From: Persephonella hydrogeniphila
GTDB lineage: Bacteria; Aquificota; Aquificia; Aquificales; Hydrogenothermaceae
Direction: 5' to 3'
Assembly (NCBI RefSeq): GCF_900215515.1
Contig: NZ_OBEI01000010.1
Span: 1 to 64,000, forward strand
DNA length: 64,000 nucleotides
Shown here: one piece after another, positions 14,456 through 62,013 of the stretch
How positions within the stretch are numbered: the stretch's first letter is position 1
Layout of the letters: each line of letters starts with the position of its first letter
Notes under the pieces: model-generated
The model's database searches: none
Told to the model about the DNA's origin: nothing
The model's input: only the letters and a program-made list of their open reading frames with translations
Program-made: the position numbers and the translations under genes

Positions 14456-15493
14456 ATGAAAAAGATAAAGGTAGCTTTGCTATCTGTAGCGGTGGCGGCA
14501 ACTTCAGCTGTTGCATCTGATGCTGATTTACTTAACAAGGCAAAGAATTACTTTAAACCACTTCCAAAAGAAATTCCTGCTCCCAAGGATAATCCTACAA
14601 CTCCTGAAAAAGTTGAGCTCGGTAAAAAGCTTTACTACGACCCAAGACTTTCCCTCAGCGGTGTAATCAGTTGTAACACATGTCATAATCTCGCAACTTT
14701 TGGTGTTGATGGTGTGGAGACAGCACTGGGACATGAGTTTAAAACAGGTGGAAGAAACTCTCCAACAGTTCTTAATGCCGGTTTCCATATTGCCCAGTTC
14801 TGGGATGGAAGAGCAAAAACATTAGAAGATCAGGCAAAGGGTCCAATACTTGCCCACGTTGAAATGGCAATGCCAAATCCTGAATTTGTTGTTTTAAAAC
14901 TCCAGACAATTCCGGGATATGTGGAAGAGTTTAAGAAGGTTTTTGGAGGAGATAACCCTCTTACATACGACAATATTGCCAAGGCTATAGCAGCTTTTGA
15001 AAGAACGCTTGTAACTCCTTCAAGGTTTGATAAATTCCTCAATGGAGATACTAATGCTCTTACAAAGAAAGAGAAAGAAGGTCTAAAACTCTTTATAGAT
15101 AAAGGATGTGCAAGCTGCCACAACGGAGTAGCAGTTGGAGGTCAGATGTTTGCTAAATTCGGAATAGTAAAACCTTATCCAACTCCTGATTTTGGAAGAT
15201 ACAAAGTTACTAAGAAAGAAGAAGACAGATATGTATTTAAAGTACCTTCGCTCAGAAATATAGAGATGACATATCCTTATTTCCACGATGGTTCTGTTTG
15301 GGATCTTAAAGAAGCTGTAAGAATAATGGGAGAAACCCAGCTTGGAATAAAACTTACACATGATGAGATAGACAAAATAGTTGCATTCCTAAAATCCCTT
15401 ACAGGAGAAATACCTGAATCAGCAAGAACAATGCCAGTGCTTCCGGCTTCTTCTAAAGATACTCCAAAACCAAGATTGAAAATACATGACTAA
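14456..15493 (+). CDS. ccpA: Di-haem cytochrome c peroxidase (periplasmic, CCP/MauG family)
   Basis: Bacterial CCP reduces H2O2 to water in the periplasm using electrons from a c-type cytochrome. A Sec signal peptide (about residues 1-20, ending AVASDA) precedes two CXXCH haem sites, CNTCH (Cys73/76, His77) and CASCH (Cys218/221, His222). The regions ALGHEFKTGGRNSPTVLNAG and RNIEMTYPYFHDGSVWDL match the CCP family. At 345 aa it is the usual length. The gene has its own promoter and a strong terminator, so it is monocistronic. Confidence 0.94.
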   Translation: MKKIKVALLSVAVAATSAVASDADLLNKAKNYFKPLPKEIPAPKDNPTTPEKVELGKKLYYDPRLSLSGVISCNTCHNLATFGVDGVETALGHEFKTGGRNSPTVLNAGFHIAQFWDGRAKTLEDQAKGPILAHVEMAMPNPEFVVLKLQTIPGYVEEFKKVFGGDNPLTYDNIAKAIAAFERTLVTPSRFDKFLNGDTNALTKKEKEGLKLFIDKGCASCHNGVAVGGQMFAKFGIVKPYPTPDFGRYKVTKKEEDRYVFKVPSLRNIEMTYPYFHDGSVWDLKEAVRIMGETQLGIKLTHDEIDKIVAFLKSLTGEIPESARTMPVLPASSKDTPKPRLKIHD

Positions 15494-21181: not shown

Positions 21182-21186
21182 ATTCA

Positions 21187-21209
21187 GGGGCAGTGAATGC
21201 CCCTTTTTT
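21187..21209 (+). terminator. Rho-independent terminator after bpsA
   Basis: Stem GGGGCA/TGCCCC with loop GTGAA and a run of six T. It separates the polyamine operon from the convergent sodN. Confidence 0.88.
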
Positions 21210-21210
21210 A

Positions 21211-21687
21211 TTAATGATAACTTTCTTTTTTCCCAAAGTACAATTTCTCAAATTCTGATAACAACTTTCTAAGCTTATCTGTGTACTTAGTATCAACGTT
21301 TTGTTTTACTTTCATTGCGAAGAATGAGAGTTTATGCAGAAGCTCAACTTTTTTAATGTATTTTCTGTATTTTTCTTTTTCTTCAGGATTTATCGGTTTT
21401 ATCCTCTGTGTAAGAAAATACTGCCACACTATATACTGAAACTCTTTTGCGTGTTTCTCTTTGTTCATAATCCATCTTATAAGCTGATTTTTAGAATGGG
21501 GATCGTTTTTCTCAGAGAGTTCTTTGATCTTCTTAATAGATTTCTCCATTGTAGTGATATGTTCTTCTAAGAGATGTATCCTCAGATGGTCATCGTAAAT
21601 TCCACAAGGGATCTCACAGTGGGCTAATGCTTTCCCGGAATAAATGAGAATAGTTATAACTCCCCATAAAGCTAAAATATTTCTCAT
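21211..21687 (-). CDS. sodN: Nickel superoxide dismutase with a Sec signal peptide
   Basis: NiSOD dismutates superoxide using a nickel bound by an N-terminal hook. The protein (158 aa) begins with a 22-residue hydrophobic signal ending KALA, then HCEIPCGIYDD, the diagnostic nickel hook (His23, Cys24, Cys28; His1, Cys2, Cys6 after cleavage). Downstream helices also match the family, e.g. NDPHSKNQLIRW, EFQYIVWQYF and EFEKLYFGKK. Cleavage after ALA would leave His1 free, as nickel binding needs. I chose ATG at 21687 because AGGAGG lies 9 nt upstream; a longer reading to 21909 has no ribosome-binding site and an implausible N-terminus. No sodX protease gene is adjacent. Confidence 0.9.
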   Translation of the reverse strand: MRNILALWGVITILIYSGKALAHCEIPCGIYDDHLRIHLLEEHITTMEKSIKKIKELSEKNDPHSKNQLIRWIMNKEKHAKEFQYIVWQYFLTQRIKPINPEEKEKYRKYIKKVELLHKLSFFAMKVKQNVDTKYTDKLRKLLSEFEKLYFGKKESYH

Positions 21688-21731
21688 AATTTTGAACCTC
21701 CTTTTTATTTTTCGAGATTGTATTTGTATTT

Positions 21732-21839: not shown

Positions 21840-24431
21840 ATGAGCTTTTTGGAAGAATACAGAAAACATGTAGAAGAAAGAGAAAAACTTGGTATTCCTC
21901 CTCTTCCATTAAATGCCAAGCAGGTGGAAGAGCTTGTAGAGCTTCTTCAGCAGGTTCCTATCGTTGAAGAAGAATACCTTATGGATTTATTTCTTAACAG
22001 AATTCCACCAGGTGTAGATGATGCGGCTTTTGTAAAGGCTAAATTCCTTGCAGATATAATCGAAGGAAACAAAAGATCACCTGCTATAACACCTGTACAT
22101 GCAGTTCAGATACTCGGAACGATGCTTGGAGGATACAATGTAGAACCTCTAGTAAAAGCCCTTTCCCATAAAGATGAAGAGATAGCCAGAGAAGCAGCTA
22201 AAGCCCTGAAAAACATTCTCCTTGTTTACGATTATTTCAATGATGTTGTTGAGCTTGCAAAATCGGGGAATAAATATGCACAGGAGGTTCTTGAAAGCTG
22301 GGCAAATGCAGAATGGTTTACATCTAAAGAACCTCTTCCAGAAAAAATTACAGTAACTGTGTTCAAAGTTCCGGGAGAAACAAATACAGATGATCTTTCT
22401 CCTGCAAGAGAAGCCTCCACAAGAAGTGATATTCCTCTTCATGCACTCTCTATGCTTCAGGCAAAAATGCCAGATGCTATCCAGACAATACAGAAACTGA
22501 AAGAAAAAGGTCATCCTGTTGCTTTTGTTGGTGATGTTGTAGGAACCGGTTCTTCAAGAAAATCAGCAACAAACTCCCTTATGTGGTGGATAGGTGAAGA
22601 TATCCCTTATGTTCCAAATAAAAGAAGAGGTGGAGTCGTAATAGGTGGAGTTATAGCTCCTATATTCTTCAACACATGGGAAGATTCAGGAGGTCTTCCT
22701 ATAATAGCTGATGTTTCAAAGTTGGAAACAGGTGATGTTATTGATATCTATCCGTATGAAGGAAAAATTGTTAAAAATGGGGAAGTTGTAGCTACATTTG
22801 AACTGAAACCAAACACTCTTCCAGATGAAGTAAGAGCAGGAGGAAGAATTCCTCTGATAATAGGTAGAAATCTGACAAGAAAAGCAAGGGAAGCTCTTGG
22901 AATGCCTGAAGAACAAATATTTATCAGGCCTGAACAGCCACCTGAGAAGGAAGGTGTAGGATACACTCTTGCTCAAAAAATGGTAGGTAGAGCCTGTGGA
23001 ATGGAAGGTGTCAGGCCGGGAATGTATGTTGAACCTCAGGTTTTAACAGTAGGTTCTCAGGATACAACAGGTGCTATGACAAGGGATGAGATAAAAGAGC
23101 TAGCAGCCCTTTCCTTTGGTGCAGACCTTGTTATGCAGTCGTTCTGTCATACAGCAGCTTATCCAAAACCTGCTGATGTTAAACTCCAGCTTACTCTACC
23201 TCAGTTTATTATCAAGAGAGGTGGTGTATCTCTCAGGCCGGGAGATGGAGTCATCCACTCATGGCTAAACAGAATGGTTCTTCCAGATACTGTAGGAACA
23301 GGTGCTGACTCCCATACAAGATTTCCTATTGGTATATCTTTCCCTGCCGGTTCAGGACTTGTTGCATTTGCAGCAGTCACAGGAACAATGCCTCTAAATA
23401 TGCCTGAATCTGTTCTTGTTAGATTTAAAGGAGAAATACAACCGGGAATAACGGTAAGGGATCTTGTTAATGCAATACCCTACTATGCTATAAAACAGGG
23501 TCTGTTAACAGTTGAAAAACAGGGTAAGAAAAATATATTTGCAGGAAGAATTCTTGAGATAGAAGGACTGGAAAATCTTAAAGTTGAGCAGGCTTTTGAG
23601 CTTTCTGACGCTTCAGCAGAAAGAAGTGCAGCTGCGTGTACAGTAAAACTCAATAAAGAACCTGTTATTGAGTATATCCAGTCAAATATAGCACTTCTTG
23701 AAAAAATGATAGAGGCAGGTTATCAGGATGCAAGAACACTACAGAGAAGAATAGATAAGATGAAAGCATGGCTTGAAAATCCGGAACTCCTTGAAGCAGA
23801 TGAAAACGCAGAGTATGCAGCGGTAATAGAGATAGATCTAAATGAGATCAAAGAACCTATCCTTGCATGTCCTAATGATCCTGACGATGTTGCAACCCTT
23901 TCTGAAGTTTTAGCTGACGAAAGAAGACCTAAGAATATTGATGAGGTTTTTGTAGGATCATGTATGACGAATATAGGACATTTCAGAGCAGTAGGAGAGA
24001 TACTTAGAGGAGAAGGTCAGTTACCAACAAGACTGTGGATTGTTCCACCAACAAAGATGGATGAAAGACAGCTTATAGAAGAAGGATATTACAATATTTA
24101 TGGAGTTGCTGGTGCGAGAACGGAAGTTCCCGGATGCTCTCTGTGTATGGGTAATCAGGCAAGAGTCAGAGATGGTGCTATAGTTATGTCTACATCTACA
24201 AGAAATTTTGATAACAGAATGGGTAAAGATGCAAAGGTATACCTTGGATCAGCTGAGATATCTGCAATATGTGCGGTTCTTGGAAGACTTCCGACGGTGG
24301 AAGAGTACCACAAATTCATGGAAGAAAAGATTGCCGGAAAAGAGGACAAAGTTTATAGATTCCTCAACTTCCATGAGCTTTCAGATGAAGAGCTTGATAT
24401 TTTAGTGGCAGATGCACTTTATACATTTTAG
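21840..24431 (+). CDS. acnB: Aconitate hydratase B
   Basis: AcnB interconverts citrate and isocitrate; in Aquificota this serves the reductive TCA cycle. The 863-aa protein has the AcnB order: N-terminal HEAT-like domain, swivel domain ([25 protein letters not shown]) and then the catalytic core with [13 protein letters not shown] and the cluster cysteines in [13 protein letters not shown] and [19 protein letters not shown] precedes the ATG. It is divergent from sodN and ends in a terminator shared with the next gene. Confidence 0.96.
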
Positions 24432-25742: not shown

Positions 25743-28481
25743 ATGAAAGAATTTTTAGGGGAGATATCATATAACGGGAAAAAATTCAAAACATACAGTC
25801 TAAAAAAACTACATAATGTCTATACAGGAATAGATAAACAGCCTTTTTCTATCAGGGTTCTTATTGAAAATATCCTTAGAAAATTAGATGGAAAAGTGGT
25901 AACCGACAAGCATCTAAAAGAGATTTCCAACTGGAAAAGGAGGTATGAAACACCTGTTGAAATCCCGTTTCATCCTGCAAGGGTAATAATGCAAGATTTT
26001 ACCGGGGTTCCAGGAGTCGTAGATCTCGCTGCTATGAGAGATGCAGCAAAAGAGTTAGGTATAGATCCTGAGAAAGTAAATCCTCTTGTTCCTGTAGATC
26101 TTATTATTGATCACTCTATACAGATAGATTTTTACGGAACGGAGGATGCATTTAAGAAAAATCTTGAACTTGAGTATAAAAGGAACAAAGAGAGATACCA
26201 GCTTCTAAAATGGGCACAGAAAGCATTTGATAATATGAGAGTTTTTCCTCCCGGAGCAGGGATAATACACCAGGTGAACCTCGAGTATATAGCTCAAGTA
26301 GTAATGAAATCTGAAGAAAACGGAGAAAGTATAGCTTTTCCTGATACTGTAGTTGGAACAGATTCCCACACAACAATGATAAATGGTCTTGGTGTGCTTG
26401 GATGGGGGGTTGGGGGTATTGAGGCAGAAGCTGTTATGCTTGGACAGCCTTACTACATGAAGATTCCGGAAGTTGTCGGTGTTAAACTTTCAGGTGAACT
26501 GCCTGAAGGAGTTACAACAACAGATCTTGTCCTGACCATTACTCAGAAACTCAGAGAGTACGGTGTTGTTGAAAAATTTGTTGAATTTTTTGGAGAAGGA
26601 GTTAAAAAATTGTCTCTTCCAGATAGGGCTACAATAGCAAATATGGCACCTGAATACGGAGCAACAGCTGGATTTTTCCCTGTTGATGAAGAAACAGTAA
26701 ACTTTCTGAAACTGACAGGAAGAGAAGATACGGCTGAATTGGTAGAGATTTATACAAAAGAAAATCTACTTTACTACTATGGTAATGAAAGAATAAATTA
26801 TACAGATGTAATTGAAATAGATTTGACACAGATAGAACCTTCTCTTGCAGGACCTTCAAGACCTCAAGATAGAGTTTCCCTCAGAAACATGAAAAAAAGC
26901 TTTATAGATATGCTCAACTGTAATTACGGAAGAGAGATAGATATAAAAGAAATTACAGCTTTTGAAGATGAAGCAGGTAAGGATATGGAAGCTGGAGAAT
27001 GCAGAATCCATAAAGGTAAAAAAATAGTAAAAATAGAGATAGATGGAGAAGAGATAATAATTGGAGATGGTTCTGTAGTAATCGCATCTATAACATCGTG
27101 TACAAACACATCGAATCCTTCTGTTCTTATAGCAGCAGGTCTACTTGCAAAGAAAGCTGTTGAGAATGGATTAAGTGTTAAACCATATGTAAAAACATCT
27201 TTGGCTCCCGGTTCGAGGGTTGTTGAAGAGTATCTGAAAAAGGCAGGGCTTCTTCCTTATCTTGAAGCTTTGAGATTTCATATTGTAGGTTTTGGATGTA
27301 CAACATGTATTGGAAATAGTGGTCCTCTGCATCCTGATATAGAAAAAGCTATTAAAGAAAATGATCTGATAGTTTCTGCTGTTTTATCAGGAAACAGGAA
27401 TTTTGAAGCAAGGATACATCCTGATGTAAAAGCAAATTATCTTGCTTCTCCTCCTCTTGTAGTTGCATATGCTATAGCAGGTAGAACAGATATAGATCTT
27501 ACTTCTGAACCTGTTGGATTTGATCCTAATGGGGAGCCAGTGTACCTTAAAGATATATGGCCTTCTCAGGAAGAAATTAATCGGATAATGAGTAGTGTTC
27601 TTTCTCCACAGATATTCAAAGAAAAATACAAAGATATATTAAAGGGGGATGATCTCTGGCAAAAATTGGAGGCACCTGAAGGGGAAACTTTTAATTGGGA
27701 TCCTAATTCTACATACATAAGAAAACCACCATATTTTGAAGGATTTTCTGTAGATATTCTCCCTCCGGAAGACATAAAAGGAGCCAGAGTTCTTGAACTT
27801 CTGGGGGATTCTGTAACAACAGATCACATTTCTCCTGCAGGTAAAATACCTCCTGATTATCCTGCCGGAAAGTATCTTATAGAACATGGTGTAAAACCTG
27901 AAGATTTTAACTCGTATGGTGCAAGAAGGGGAAATCATGAGGTAATGGTAAGGGGAACTTTTGCAAATGTCAGAATAAAAAATAAGTTAGTAGCTCCAAA
28001 AGAAGGAGGCTATACCCTTAAATTCCCTGAGAAAGAAGAGATGTTTGTATACGATGCAGCGGTAAAATATGCAGAAGAGGGAACTCCTCTGATAGTTCTT
28101 GCAGGAAAGGAGTATGGAACAGGTTCTTCAAGAGATTGGGCAGCTAAAGGAACTAAACTGCTTGGTGTTAAAGCTGTAATTGTAAAATCTTTTGAGAGAA
28201 TACATAGATCAAATCTTGTAGGAATGGGTGTTCTGCCTCTTGTATTTAAAGAGGGAGAAGGGTGGGAAGAATTAGGACTTGACGGTTCGGAAATTTACGA
28301 AATAACAGGGATAAAGGATATCCAGCCTGGAAAAGAGCTGTCTGTAAAGGCAATCAAAGAAAATGGAGAGATTATTCAGTTTAAAGTAATATCAAGATTA
28401 GATACAGTTGTTGATATAGAGTATTTTAAAAACGGTGGGATTCTCCCTATGGTACTCAGAAAAATTGTGAAGGAAGGCTAA
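25743..28481 (+). CDS. acnA: Aconitate hydratase A-type
   Basis: A 912-aa AcnA/IRP-family aconitase. Motifs: DSHTTMINGLGVLGWGVGGIEAEAV, the cluster cysteines in SCTNTSNPSVL and GFGCTTCIGNSGPL, GDSVTTDHISPAG, and GSSRDWAAKGT in the swivel domain. It is separate in family from acnB next door, so the genome encodes both types within 7 kb. It could serve the TCA cycle under other conditions or act on another tricarboxylate such as 2-methylcitrate-derived compounds. It is divergent from the SQR-like gene across a 120-bp AT-rich gap in which I see no clear operator. Confidence 0.93.
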   Translation: MKEFLGEISYNGKKFKTYSLKKLHNVYTGIDKQPFSIRVLIENILRKLDGKVVTDKHLKEISNWKRRYETPVEIPFHPARVIMQDFTGVPGVVDLAAMRDAAKELGIDPEKVNPLVPVDLIIDHSIQIDFYGTEDAFKKNLELEYKRNKERYQLLKWAQKAFDNMRVFPPGAGIIHQVNLEYIAQVVMKSEENGESIAFPDTVVGTDSHTTMINGLGVLGWGVGGIEAEAVMLGQPYYMKIPEVVGVKLSGELPEGVTTTDLVLTITQKLREYGVVEKFVEFFGEGVKKLSLPDRATIANMAPEYGATAGFFPVDEETVNFLKLTGREDTAELVEIYTKENLLYYYGNERINYTDVIEIDLTQIEPSLAGPSRPQDRVSLRNMKKSFIDMLNCNYGREIDIKEITAFEDEAGKDMEAGECRIHKGKKIVKIEIDGEEIIIGDGSVVIASITSCTNTSNPSVLIAAGLLAKKAVENGLSVKPYVKTSLAPGSRVVEEYLKKAGLLPYLEALRFHIVGFGCTTCIGNSGPLHPDIEKAIKENDLIVSAVLSGNRNFEARIHPDVKANYLASPPLVVAYAIAGRTDIDLTSEPVGFDPNGEPVYLKDIWPSQEEINRIMSSVLSPQIFKEKYKDILKGDDLWQKLEAPEGETFNWDPNSTYIRKPPYFEGFSVDILPPEDIKGARVLELLGDSVTTDHISPAGKIPPDYPAGKYLIEHGVKPEDFNSYGARRGNHEVMVRGTFANVRIKNKLVAPKEGGYTLKFPEKEEMFVYDAAVKYAEEGTPLIVLAGKEYGTGSSRDWAAKGTKLLGVKAVIVKSFERIHRSNLVGMGVLPLVFKEGEGWEELGLDGSEIYEITGIKDIQPGKELSVKAIKENGEIIQFKVISRLDTVVDIEYFKNGGILPMVLRKIVKEG

Positions 28482-28744
28482 TCTTTGTATTCTGAGCAAA
28501 GAATATCTGCAGTTGTGTTTGCTTCATAAAGGGATTCGGAAAGGCAGCCCATCTCACAGGCTTTTTTCAGGATAGGGCTATCTCCTTTATAACCATTTTC
28601 GCAGTTTTTTATTTTTCCACTTTCTCTGTCCTTAAAGCATTTTACTGTTATTTCTTGAATTTCTTTACAGATACTTTCCGGATAGAGGGGAGGGGTTATC
28701 GTGTATATAGTAGCTACCACTATAGATACTATCATCTTTCTCAT
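28478..28744 (-). CDS. Small secreted six-cysteine protein, unknown function
   Basis: An 88-aa protein not recognised. Residues 1-22 form a signal peptide (MRKM then a hydrophobic stretch). The mature part has six cysteines (26, 36, 48, 63, 67, 83), enough for three disulfides, and alternates charged and polar residues; CKEIQEITVKCF and CEMGC stand out. No CXXCH haem motif is present. A GAGGG ribosome-binding site precedes the ATG. Its stop overlaps the acnA stop by 4 bp on the opposite strand. Confidence 0.7.
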   Translation of the reverse strand: MRKMIVSIVVATIYTITPPLYPESICKEIQEITVKCFKDRESGKIKNCENGYKGDSPILKKACEMGCLSESLYEANTTADILCSEYKD

Positions 28745-60027: not shown

Positions 60028-62013
60028 TTATTTTCCAGTAACAGCAAAAGAAGATACATCATGATCTTCATATGCTCTTATCGTTGTATACCCGTTTCTT
60101 GTTTTTGGGAATGTATGAAGATGTATAGAAAATGAACATTTATCCTCGCTTCCCAGTAGTTCGCCTATGGAGATATTCAAGTTTTCATTTTCTACAGAAA
60201 AATTTGCAGAAACAGTCTTTACTTCAGATCCGTTTATGCCTTTTCTTATTATGAGATGATAACTTCTTAAAAAATCTAATGATAAGTAATCAGGATGTTT
60301 TGCAGTGTAAACTACAGTTAACTGTTCTGATTTCGTTCCATACTCAATAAACTGGCAGTTCCCAAGGGGAGTATTGTTAAATCTTATATCTTTTATATCT
60401 GCAACGGTTTTTTTGTTGTTTATATGAATGTTCAGTATTAGATCTCCATTTGAAATATTAAGGTTTGTATAAACAGGTATTACACCGTTAATCTCGCTCC
60501 CTGTTGGAAGAATAAATCTGAAATTTTTTGAGGCAGGATCGGTTATTTTGTTACCGTTAATATCAAACATCTCCAATTTTAGCTGATAAATACCGTCAGG
60601 GATGGTATCTGTCTGCCAGTATGCAAATCTCCTATCTCCCCTATGTATGATAACCCAGTCGAGGGATGGATCAGGTATCTCAAAGAGGTCTGGTGTTCCG
60701 TTGACAGTTAAAGGTCCAAGATTTTTTGTGTTTATAAACAGTTCTGTCCCTATCATCTCAAGATACCTGTGGGTCACTTTTGTATCGATAGGTTTCCAAT
60801 CTGTATCTCCTTCTTTCCTGTAAGACCATCTGTAGTATCTCACTCCATGATTCTTGAGTTCCTTGTGAAACTGCATCTGTATATCAAGACCTGTTCCGTA
60901 AGGGGCTTCTCCTTTGTATAATCCTCTTTCTGGAACAGGTATAACGTCAGGTTTTAGATGCGACTGTGTAATTTCATGCCATCCATCCCATCCTATTCCA
61001 ATGGGCATAACGTATATATCCTCAGTATCAGGTTCAGGCTCAGGTCTACATATCACAGCTTCAGGGTCAGTAATCTCTATGTAAACATCTTTTCCTGAAG
61101 GATGGTTCCAGTACGTGTAGCATGGTATCGGAGTAGGACGGTATATTATCCTTTCGTTCCCGTTTACTCTCTGTCTTACCTTAAAGTAAAGATCAGGTTT
61201 GTCTTTATCACATACAGATATCCAGACAATAGCTTGAAACGAACCATCCTGATTAAGCTGTGCTGTTGCTATCTTATCCATTTTGTAGCAGTAGGGAAGC
61301 CATATTGGATAAATCCAAGGGAGGCACAGTATATGTTTAAATACATATATCTTTTCTATGAGAAGTTTTCTAAAGCTCTCAGGAGATGAATAAACAATGT
61401 CAATAAGTCTAATATTGTCTCCTATATTTATATTCAGGTAATTTGGATGTATCTCAACAGGAGGTTTAGGAGGGATAAAAAATTCCGGCTCAGGACATGG
61501 AATTTTACCGCAGGGAAATTCTGGGATTTTTGGTCTGATTATCTGGCTAATAATATCCTGTTTAAGTCTTTTTAAAATATCTTCAGGAATTCTGAGAAAA
61601 CACGATGTGTAATCGACCTCATACACATCAACCTCTCCTATACAGACGGGAAAACCATCTTTAAAAACTTTTCCTTTTATCAGGTATGGAAATTTTATCC
61701 AGCACCCCCATACCAGTTTTGGTATATCAAGGTGTATATGAACAGGTTCCTCTTTATAAAAAAAGGTTTCTGTCAGTGGTCTATATCTGTCTAACTGGGA
61801 TAAATCTTCAACATCAGGTGCTATCTTAAGTAAGTATCTGTCTGGTTTTTTTACTGTTAATTCAATTTTTCCTTTTCTGTCTTTTAAATGTATTTTCTTT
61901 TTTGATATAAGCTTACCTTCTTTATCAAAAAGGTAACTGTAAAGCTCTGCTTCTTTCTCTTCTATATCAAAAAGATTTAAAGAGACAGTTATATTTCCTT
62001 TCGATTTTTCCAT
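60028..62013 (-). CDS. Large beta-rich protein of the papain cassette, unknown function
   Basis: A 661-aa protein not recognised. It has no signal peptide and no transmembrane segment. The N-terminal 150 residues look like two transthyretin/carboxypeptidase-regulatory-like beta domains (GKLISKKKIHLKDRKGKIEL; GKVFKDGFPVCIGEVDVYEVD). A Pro/Cys-rich linker (PEFPCGKIPCPEPEFFIPP) leads to further beta-rich parts with many Trp and Tyr (IGIGWDGWHEITQ, VRYYRWSYRKEGDTDWKPI, RRFAYWQTDTIPDGIYQLKLEMFD). It ends in another sandwich-like region. It follows the peptidase gene by 12 bp and shares its operon. Binding of protein or carbohydrate is a guess. Confidence 0.7.
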   Translation of the reverse strand: MEKSKGNITVSLNLFDIEEKEAELYSYLFDKEGKLISKKKIHLKDRKGKIELTVKKPDRYLLKIAPDVEDLSQLDRYRPLTETFFYKEEPVHIHLDIPKLVWGCWIKFPYLIKGKVFKDGFPVCIGEVDVYEVDYTSCFLRIPEDILKRLKQDIISQIIRPKIPEFPCGKIPCPEPEFFIPPKPPVEIHPNYLNINIGDNIRLIDIVYSSPESFRKLLIEKIYVFKHILCLPWIYPIWLPYCYKMDKIATAQLNQDGSFQAIVWISVCDKDKPDLYFKVRQRVNGNERIIYRPTPIPCYTYWNHPSGKDVYIEITDPEAVICRPEPEPDTEDIYVMPIGIGWDGWHEITQSHLKPDVIPVPERGLYKGEAPYGTGLDIQMQFHKELKNHGVRYYRWSYRKEGDTDWKPIDTKVTHRYLEMIGTELFINTKNLGPLTVNGTPDLFEIPDPSLDWVIIHRGDRRFAYWQTDTIPDGIYQLKLEMFDINGNKITDPASKNFRFILPTGSEINGVIPVYTNLNISNGDLILNIHINNKKTVADIKDIRFNNTPLGNCQFIEYGTKSEQLTVVYTAKHPDYLSLDFLRSYHLIIRKGINGSEVKTVSANFSVENENLNISIGELLGSEDKCSFSIHLHTFPKTRNGYTTIRAYEDHDVSSFAVTGK

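Follow-up and report, generated by a model that had tools for sequence, protein, structure and literature searches.

The NiSOD Locus

The window analyzed here, a stretch of 64,000 nucleotides from contig NZ_OBEI01000010.1 of the heat-loving bacterium Persephonella hydrogeniphila, carries at 21211..21687 a gene for a nickel superoxide dismutase (NiSOD) precursor of 158 amino acids, recognized from the translated open reading frame and its match to the Pfam family Sod_Ni. A preliminary description had placed the gene correctly but had left out its strand, which is the minus strand. The ATG start at 21687 is secure because a perfect Shine–Dalgarno sequence, AAGGAGGT (21696..21703, minus strand), stands 8 nt upstream. 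Read from this start, the precursor is MRNILALWGVITILIYSGKALA-HCEIPCGIYDDHLRIH... and comprises a predicted Sec/signal peptidase I signal peptide of 22 codons (21622..21687), in a register common to 85 relatives, and a mature four-helix NiSOD domain of 136 amino acids (21214..21621), which begins with the nickel hook H1-C2-E3-I4-P5-C6-G7-I8-Y9 (21595..21621), all on the minus strand. A terminator-like hairpin on the plus strand (21186..21204) separates the gene from a convergent BpsA-like gene.

No conserved partner gene was found: synteny with an aconitase gene and the BpsA-like gene is confined to the genus, no nickel gene is among the neighbors, and no nickel chaperone was seen linked to NiSOD genes in their gene neighborhoods. 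Large clusters of neighboring genes around NiSODs were rejected as alternative-frame artefacts. Beside the NiSOD gene, the genes for aconitase B and a second aconitase-type protein (21840-24431 and 25743-28481 of the window) lie close together, and at 28478-28744 we noted a putative exported, cysteine-rich protein of 88 amino acids that matched neither Pfam nor NCBIfam. A 661-amino-acid protein at 60028-62013, with no Pfam match at E 1e-5, adjoins a papain-family protease gene.

The mature protein belongs to Sod_Ni (PF09055), matching profile positions 2-127 of 127 with 106.3 bits against a cut-off of 25 (E 2e-30). It also matched TIGR02753, the NCBI equivalog model for SodN, at 43.7 bits, which is below the cut-off of 90 and leaves it outside that class. 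AlphaFold2 modeled it as a four-helix bundle (mean pLDDT 93.8) with helices at 11-35, 41-73, 82-107, and 112-129; the 16 best Foldseek matches of the model were all NiSOD entries, the TM scores against the NiSOD structures 1t6u and 3g4x were 0.65-0.77, and a profile of the protein's relatives searched against the PDB matched only solved NiSOD structures. All the residues of the nickel hook, His1, Cys2, and Cys6, are present together with Pro5, Gly7, and Tyr9. H1, C2, P5, C6, and G7 are invariant in an alignment of 82 NiSODs; at position 9, 84 of 90 sequences have Tyr and 6 have Phe. Residues other than the ligands differ from the Streptomyces enzyme, Asp3 being replaced by Glu or Gln and the position of Arg47 being taken by His.

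The Leader and Its Junction with His1

Textbook NiSODs carry a short propeptide that SodX removes so that His1 can bind nickel, and they are usually described as cytoplasmic and SodX-dependent. The protein studied here was proposed in the preliminary description to carry instead a classical signal peptide ending in ALA right before HCEIPCGIYD, and the translation bears this out: the leader has a basic start and a hydrophobic core, ALA immediately precedes His1, and 85 relatives share the junction. By sequence criteria, a leader that ends directly before His1 places the protein in the signal-peptide NiSOD clade. In a crude cleavage matrix, cleavage before His1 scored +6.5 and the next-best site −5.9; the matrix was built from only 17 Escherichia coli signal peptides and, with this small training set, ranked His1 first in just 32 of the 85 relatives. 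Tat export was rejected, the twin-arginine motif being absent from this leader and RR occurring in only 4 of 90 leaders. A lipoprotein was likewise rejected, as the leader has no lipobox and the residue before Cys is His, which is not a lipobox residue.

We sampled NiSODs from 136 Aquificota genomes, 395 genomes of the phylum of a deltaproteobacterial genome, and 392 of the phylum of a Pirellulales genome, together with close relatives from public genomes and plasmids. The 107 distinct mature sequences from these three phyla and the scattered relatives split cleanly into 91 with a signal-peptide leader, counting one planctomycete protein (L141) so classified after its start was re-read, and 16 with a short, mostly hydrophilic propeptide. 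The signal-peptide leaders are charged at the start and hydrophobic in the core, with 10-residue hydropathy means of 1.9-3.8; those of the propeptides are mostly below 1.4 and at most 1.58. The leader adjoins His1 exactly in 85 of the 91, and essentially all keep the −3/−1 rule. Among the 85, position −1 is Ala in 64, Ser in 19, and Thr in 2, and position −3 is Ala in 52, Val in 14, Ser in 11, Leu in 4, Thr in 3, and Gly in 1, while −2 and −4 vary freely. Within Aquificota, the median identity is 21% for leaders and 64% for the mature part, and yet a leader length of 21-24 amino acids and the junction with His1 are kept. A junction preserved by 85 relatives while the leaders diverge excludes chance, and a conserved junction and length in a divergent leader are what would be expected if a signal peptidase I site at His1 were under selection. 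The same observations bear on whether the leader might instead be a signal anchor that is never cleaved, so that His1 would stay blocked and the protein would be inactive or otherwise used. An anchor would require neither a register locked to His1 nor Ala, Ser, or Thr at −1 in 85 of 85 sequences and small residues at −3 with −2 and −4 free, and we find this reading scarcely credible.

In six planctomycete proteins (L137, L140, L141, L145, L147, and L148), additional residues separate the signal peptide from His1, and no sodX lies nearby; either a further trimming step is required there or activation does not follow the same route. No relatives were found in phages. The megaplasmid pILYOP01 of Ilyobacter polytropus (Fusobacteriota; L152 3947-4402) encodes a NiSOD whose signal peptide is of this type. 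The design is found again in many bacteria. The earlier view that a periplasmic NiSOD would be notable in this lineage has to be moderated, since 20 of 21 NiSOD genes in the 136 Aquificota genomes are of the signal-peptide type and planctomycete cases are already present in PMC12537917.

Exclusion of sodX and Phylogeny

To be counted as sodX-like, a gene had to match a clean profile of S26-type ORFs within about 1.5 kb of a NiSOD gene. Such an ORF was found near 16 of 17 propeptide NiSODs, the single exception lying at a contig end, and near none of 92 signal-peptide NiSODs. The exclusion is strong (Fisher P value 2.8e-18), although the P value overstates independence because the sequences share ancestry. 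A natural control is provided by one Aquificota genome (G077) that encodes both kinds of NiSOD on separate contigs: a sodX-like ORF lies directly behind the propeptide NiSOD (L038 4158-5000), and none adjoins the signal-peptide NiSOD (L022).

These data also bear on the idea that the leader is a hydrophobic propeptide and that the protein stays in the cytoplasm, where a protease other than SodX exposes His1 in the same manner. The propeptides of sodX-linked NiSODs likewise end in AxA before His1, and the cleavage rule is thus by itself no proof of export. The charged start, the hydrophobic core well above the highest propeptide value, and the constant absence of sodX nearby nevertheless argue against a cytoplasmic protein, as does a superoxide reductase that already serves that compartment, and we consider this explanation very improbable.

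In a tree of the mature sequences, from which the leaders had been left out, the signal-peptide NiSODs form one side of a single branch with support 100, pointing to a single origin of the leader type and to a deep clade. The branch to this exported clade is very long (2.37 changes per column), and the P. hydrogeniphila protein belongs to the clade by its mature sequence alone. It shares 19-29% identity with the propeptide-type NiSODs of the alignment. Both classes seem, from their sequences, to be cut at the same bond by related proteases.

Superoxide Defense in the Host Genome

The host genome (Aquificota, 100% complete) was searched for the families concerned. It has a single NiSOD, and family searches found neither an Fe/Mn-SOD nor a Cu/Zn-SOD; NiSOD is the only recognizable superoxide dismutase of the host. 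As the preliminary description had stated, no sodX adjoins the gene, and the profile search gave no SodX above the cut-off anywhere in the genome; in SodX-matured SodN systems sodX is in the genome and usually adjacent. The weak matches to the SodX model were signal peptidase I (LepB, L002) and a LexA-like repressor (L003), and a hidden sodX elsewhere was rejected as these were the only ones. The presence of LepB among them is consistent with kinship between SodX and signal peptidase. The genome also encodes one superoxide reductase (SOR), which is leaderless and hence assigned to the cytoplasm. It has NiFe hydrogenases as well, which show nickel to be in use in this organism; a search for a nickel transporter of the NicO type found none.

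The two genomes of the genus with an Fe/Mn-SOD both lack NiSOD. This distribution is relevant to the possibility that the protein is exported and processed at His1 but is no SOD, the fold and hook of NiSOD having been retained for metal carriage, sensing, or copper binding in the periplasm, in the manner of DUF4198 or CopC. The differences in outer-sphere residues from Streptomyces NiSOD and the long branch of the exported clade would suit such a change of role, and metal carriers are frequent among exported His1 proteins (PMC12537917). Against it, all catalytic ligands as well as Pro5 and Gly7 are invariant and position 9 is almost always Tyr, the genome has no other SOD, and the relatives with an Fe/Mn-SOD do without NiSOD; we regard the possibility as unlikely.

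In the same family, each of three genomes (G065, G069, and G088) encodes an additional SOR whose leader is of the twin-arginine type, and NiSOD is absent from all of them. The association between exported SOR and NiSOD absence is not significant (P value 0.24), and exported SOR as a NiSOD substitute was set aside as suggestive only, although the pattern fits an envelope niche for superoxide. The leaders of these second SORs (L159, L158, and L069, respectively) are of the MDRRKFLQ type, and the proteins are possible periplasmic SORs.

Discussion

We consider it highly likely that Sec export and signal peptidase I replace SodX in the maturation of this NiSOD, that the apo-enzyme takes up nickel in the periplasm, and that SOR handles cytoplasmic superoxide. 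The protein would leave the cytoplasm through Sec as an unfolded apo-protein and be cut by signal peptidase I between ALA and HCEIPCG. One cut would then both release it into the periplasm and free the amino group and imidazole of His1, which with Cys2 and Cys6 would form the nickel hook, making SodX dispensable. Since Sec translocates unfolded proteins, nickel would have to enter after export; periplasmic loading would thus follow from the use of Sec and not Tat, and the metal would be acquired outside the cytoplasm. A NiSOD hexamer would remove superoxide in the periplasm, for example that of respiratory origin, and the leaderless SOR would guard the cytoplasm.

The signal peptide, hook, and fold, the missing sodX and other SODs, the presence of LepB and SOR, and the clade-wide junction can be read from the sequences, and they strongly suggest that NiSOD is exported and cleaved. 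The exact cleavage site, the location, nickel as the metal, SOD activity, the hexamer, and the source of nickel are predicted on the same basis. That Sec export with signal peptidase I exposes His1, as first proposed from the locus, gains support from the fixed junction, the −3/−1 rule, the strict exclusion of sodX, the single deep clade, and a genome with LepB and no sodX. Counted against it were the modest ranking of His1 by the crude matrix among the relatives, the TIGR02753 score below the cut-off, the non-ligand differences from the Streptomyces enzyme, the lack of a NicO-type transporter and of a linked nickel chaperone, and the six planctomycete exceptions, and the Cys2 and Cys6 thiols of an exported NiSOD would face an oxidizing compartment.

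With the canonical SodN/SodX system of Streptomyces and cyanobacteria, the protein shares the fold, the H1-C2-x-x-P-C6-G-x-Y hook, the need for a free His1, and the cut between AxA and His. It differs in having a signal peptide in place of the short propeptide, no sodX, a predicted periplasmic location, Glu or Gln at position 3, and a score below the TIGR02753 cut-off. LPMO, CopC, and DUF4198 proteins are exported, and removal of their signal peptide creates a His1 metal site. An N-terminal His chelate made in this way is what they have in common with the exported NiSODs, but their folds are unrelated and they bind copper or nickel and are not SODs. Algal ubiquitin–NiSOD fusions (PMC6332867) form a further NiSOD group whose N-terminus is extended in a different way and for which SodX is not mentioned; they differ in being eukaryotic and in that the extension is ubiquitin rather than an export signal.

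Exported NiSODs are implicitly on record already: in 2025, a planctomycete NiSOD signal peptide plus His was used as bait and retrieved many NiSODs (PMC12537917). The leader of Roseiconus lacunae WP_230780104.1 given there, MTRLLTATLALMFTASIASA followed by H, likewise lies directly before the His1 of Sod_Ni. In the passages concerned, the leader serves purely as search bait, and the absence of SodX, the phylogeny, the compartment, and the loading of nickel fall outside them. The literature searched, with most subscription papers beyond reach, held no description of the SodX-exclusion pattern, the deep SodX-free exported clade, or the Aquificota case. A survey of cyanobacteria (PMC8346466) suggested that strains may be incapable of using NiSOD when they lack sodX; a widespread exported clade shows that the enzyme need not be inactive where sodX is missing.

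The findings imply that assembly of this nickel enzyme takes place outside the cytoplasm and calls for no protease of its own, and they would make secretion a simple route to the production of active NiSOD. The exported clade also accounts naturally for the AxA with which SodX propeptides end. More broadly, we see an even chance that there are two ancient NiSOD lines in which the bond between AxA and His1 is cut by related proteases, SodX inside and signal peptidase I outside the cytoplasm. Export would thereby take over maturation and shift the insertion of nickel to the periplasm, and the pair of SodX and propeptide would be the internalized descendant or the forerunner of the signal peptide/signal peptidase pair. 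Elsewhere in the window (14456-15493), 6 kb from the NiSOD gene, lies a gene for a di-haem cytochrome c peroxidase with a signal peptide, an enzyme that could clear the H2O2 arising from a periplasmic SOD.
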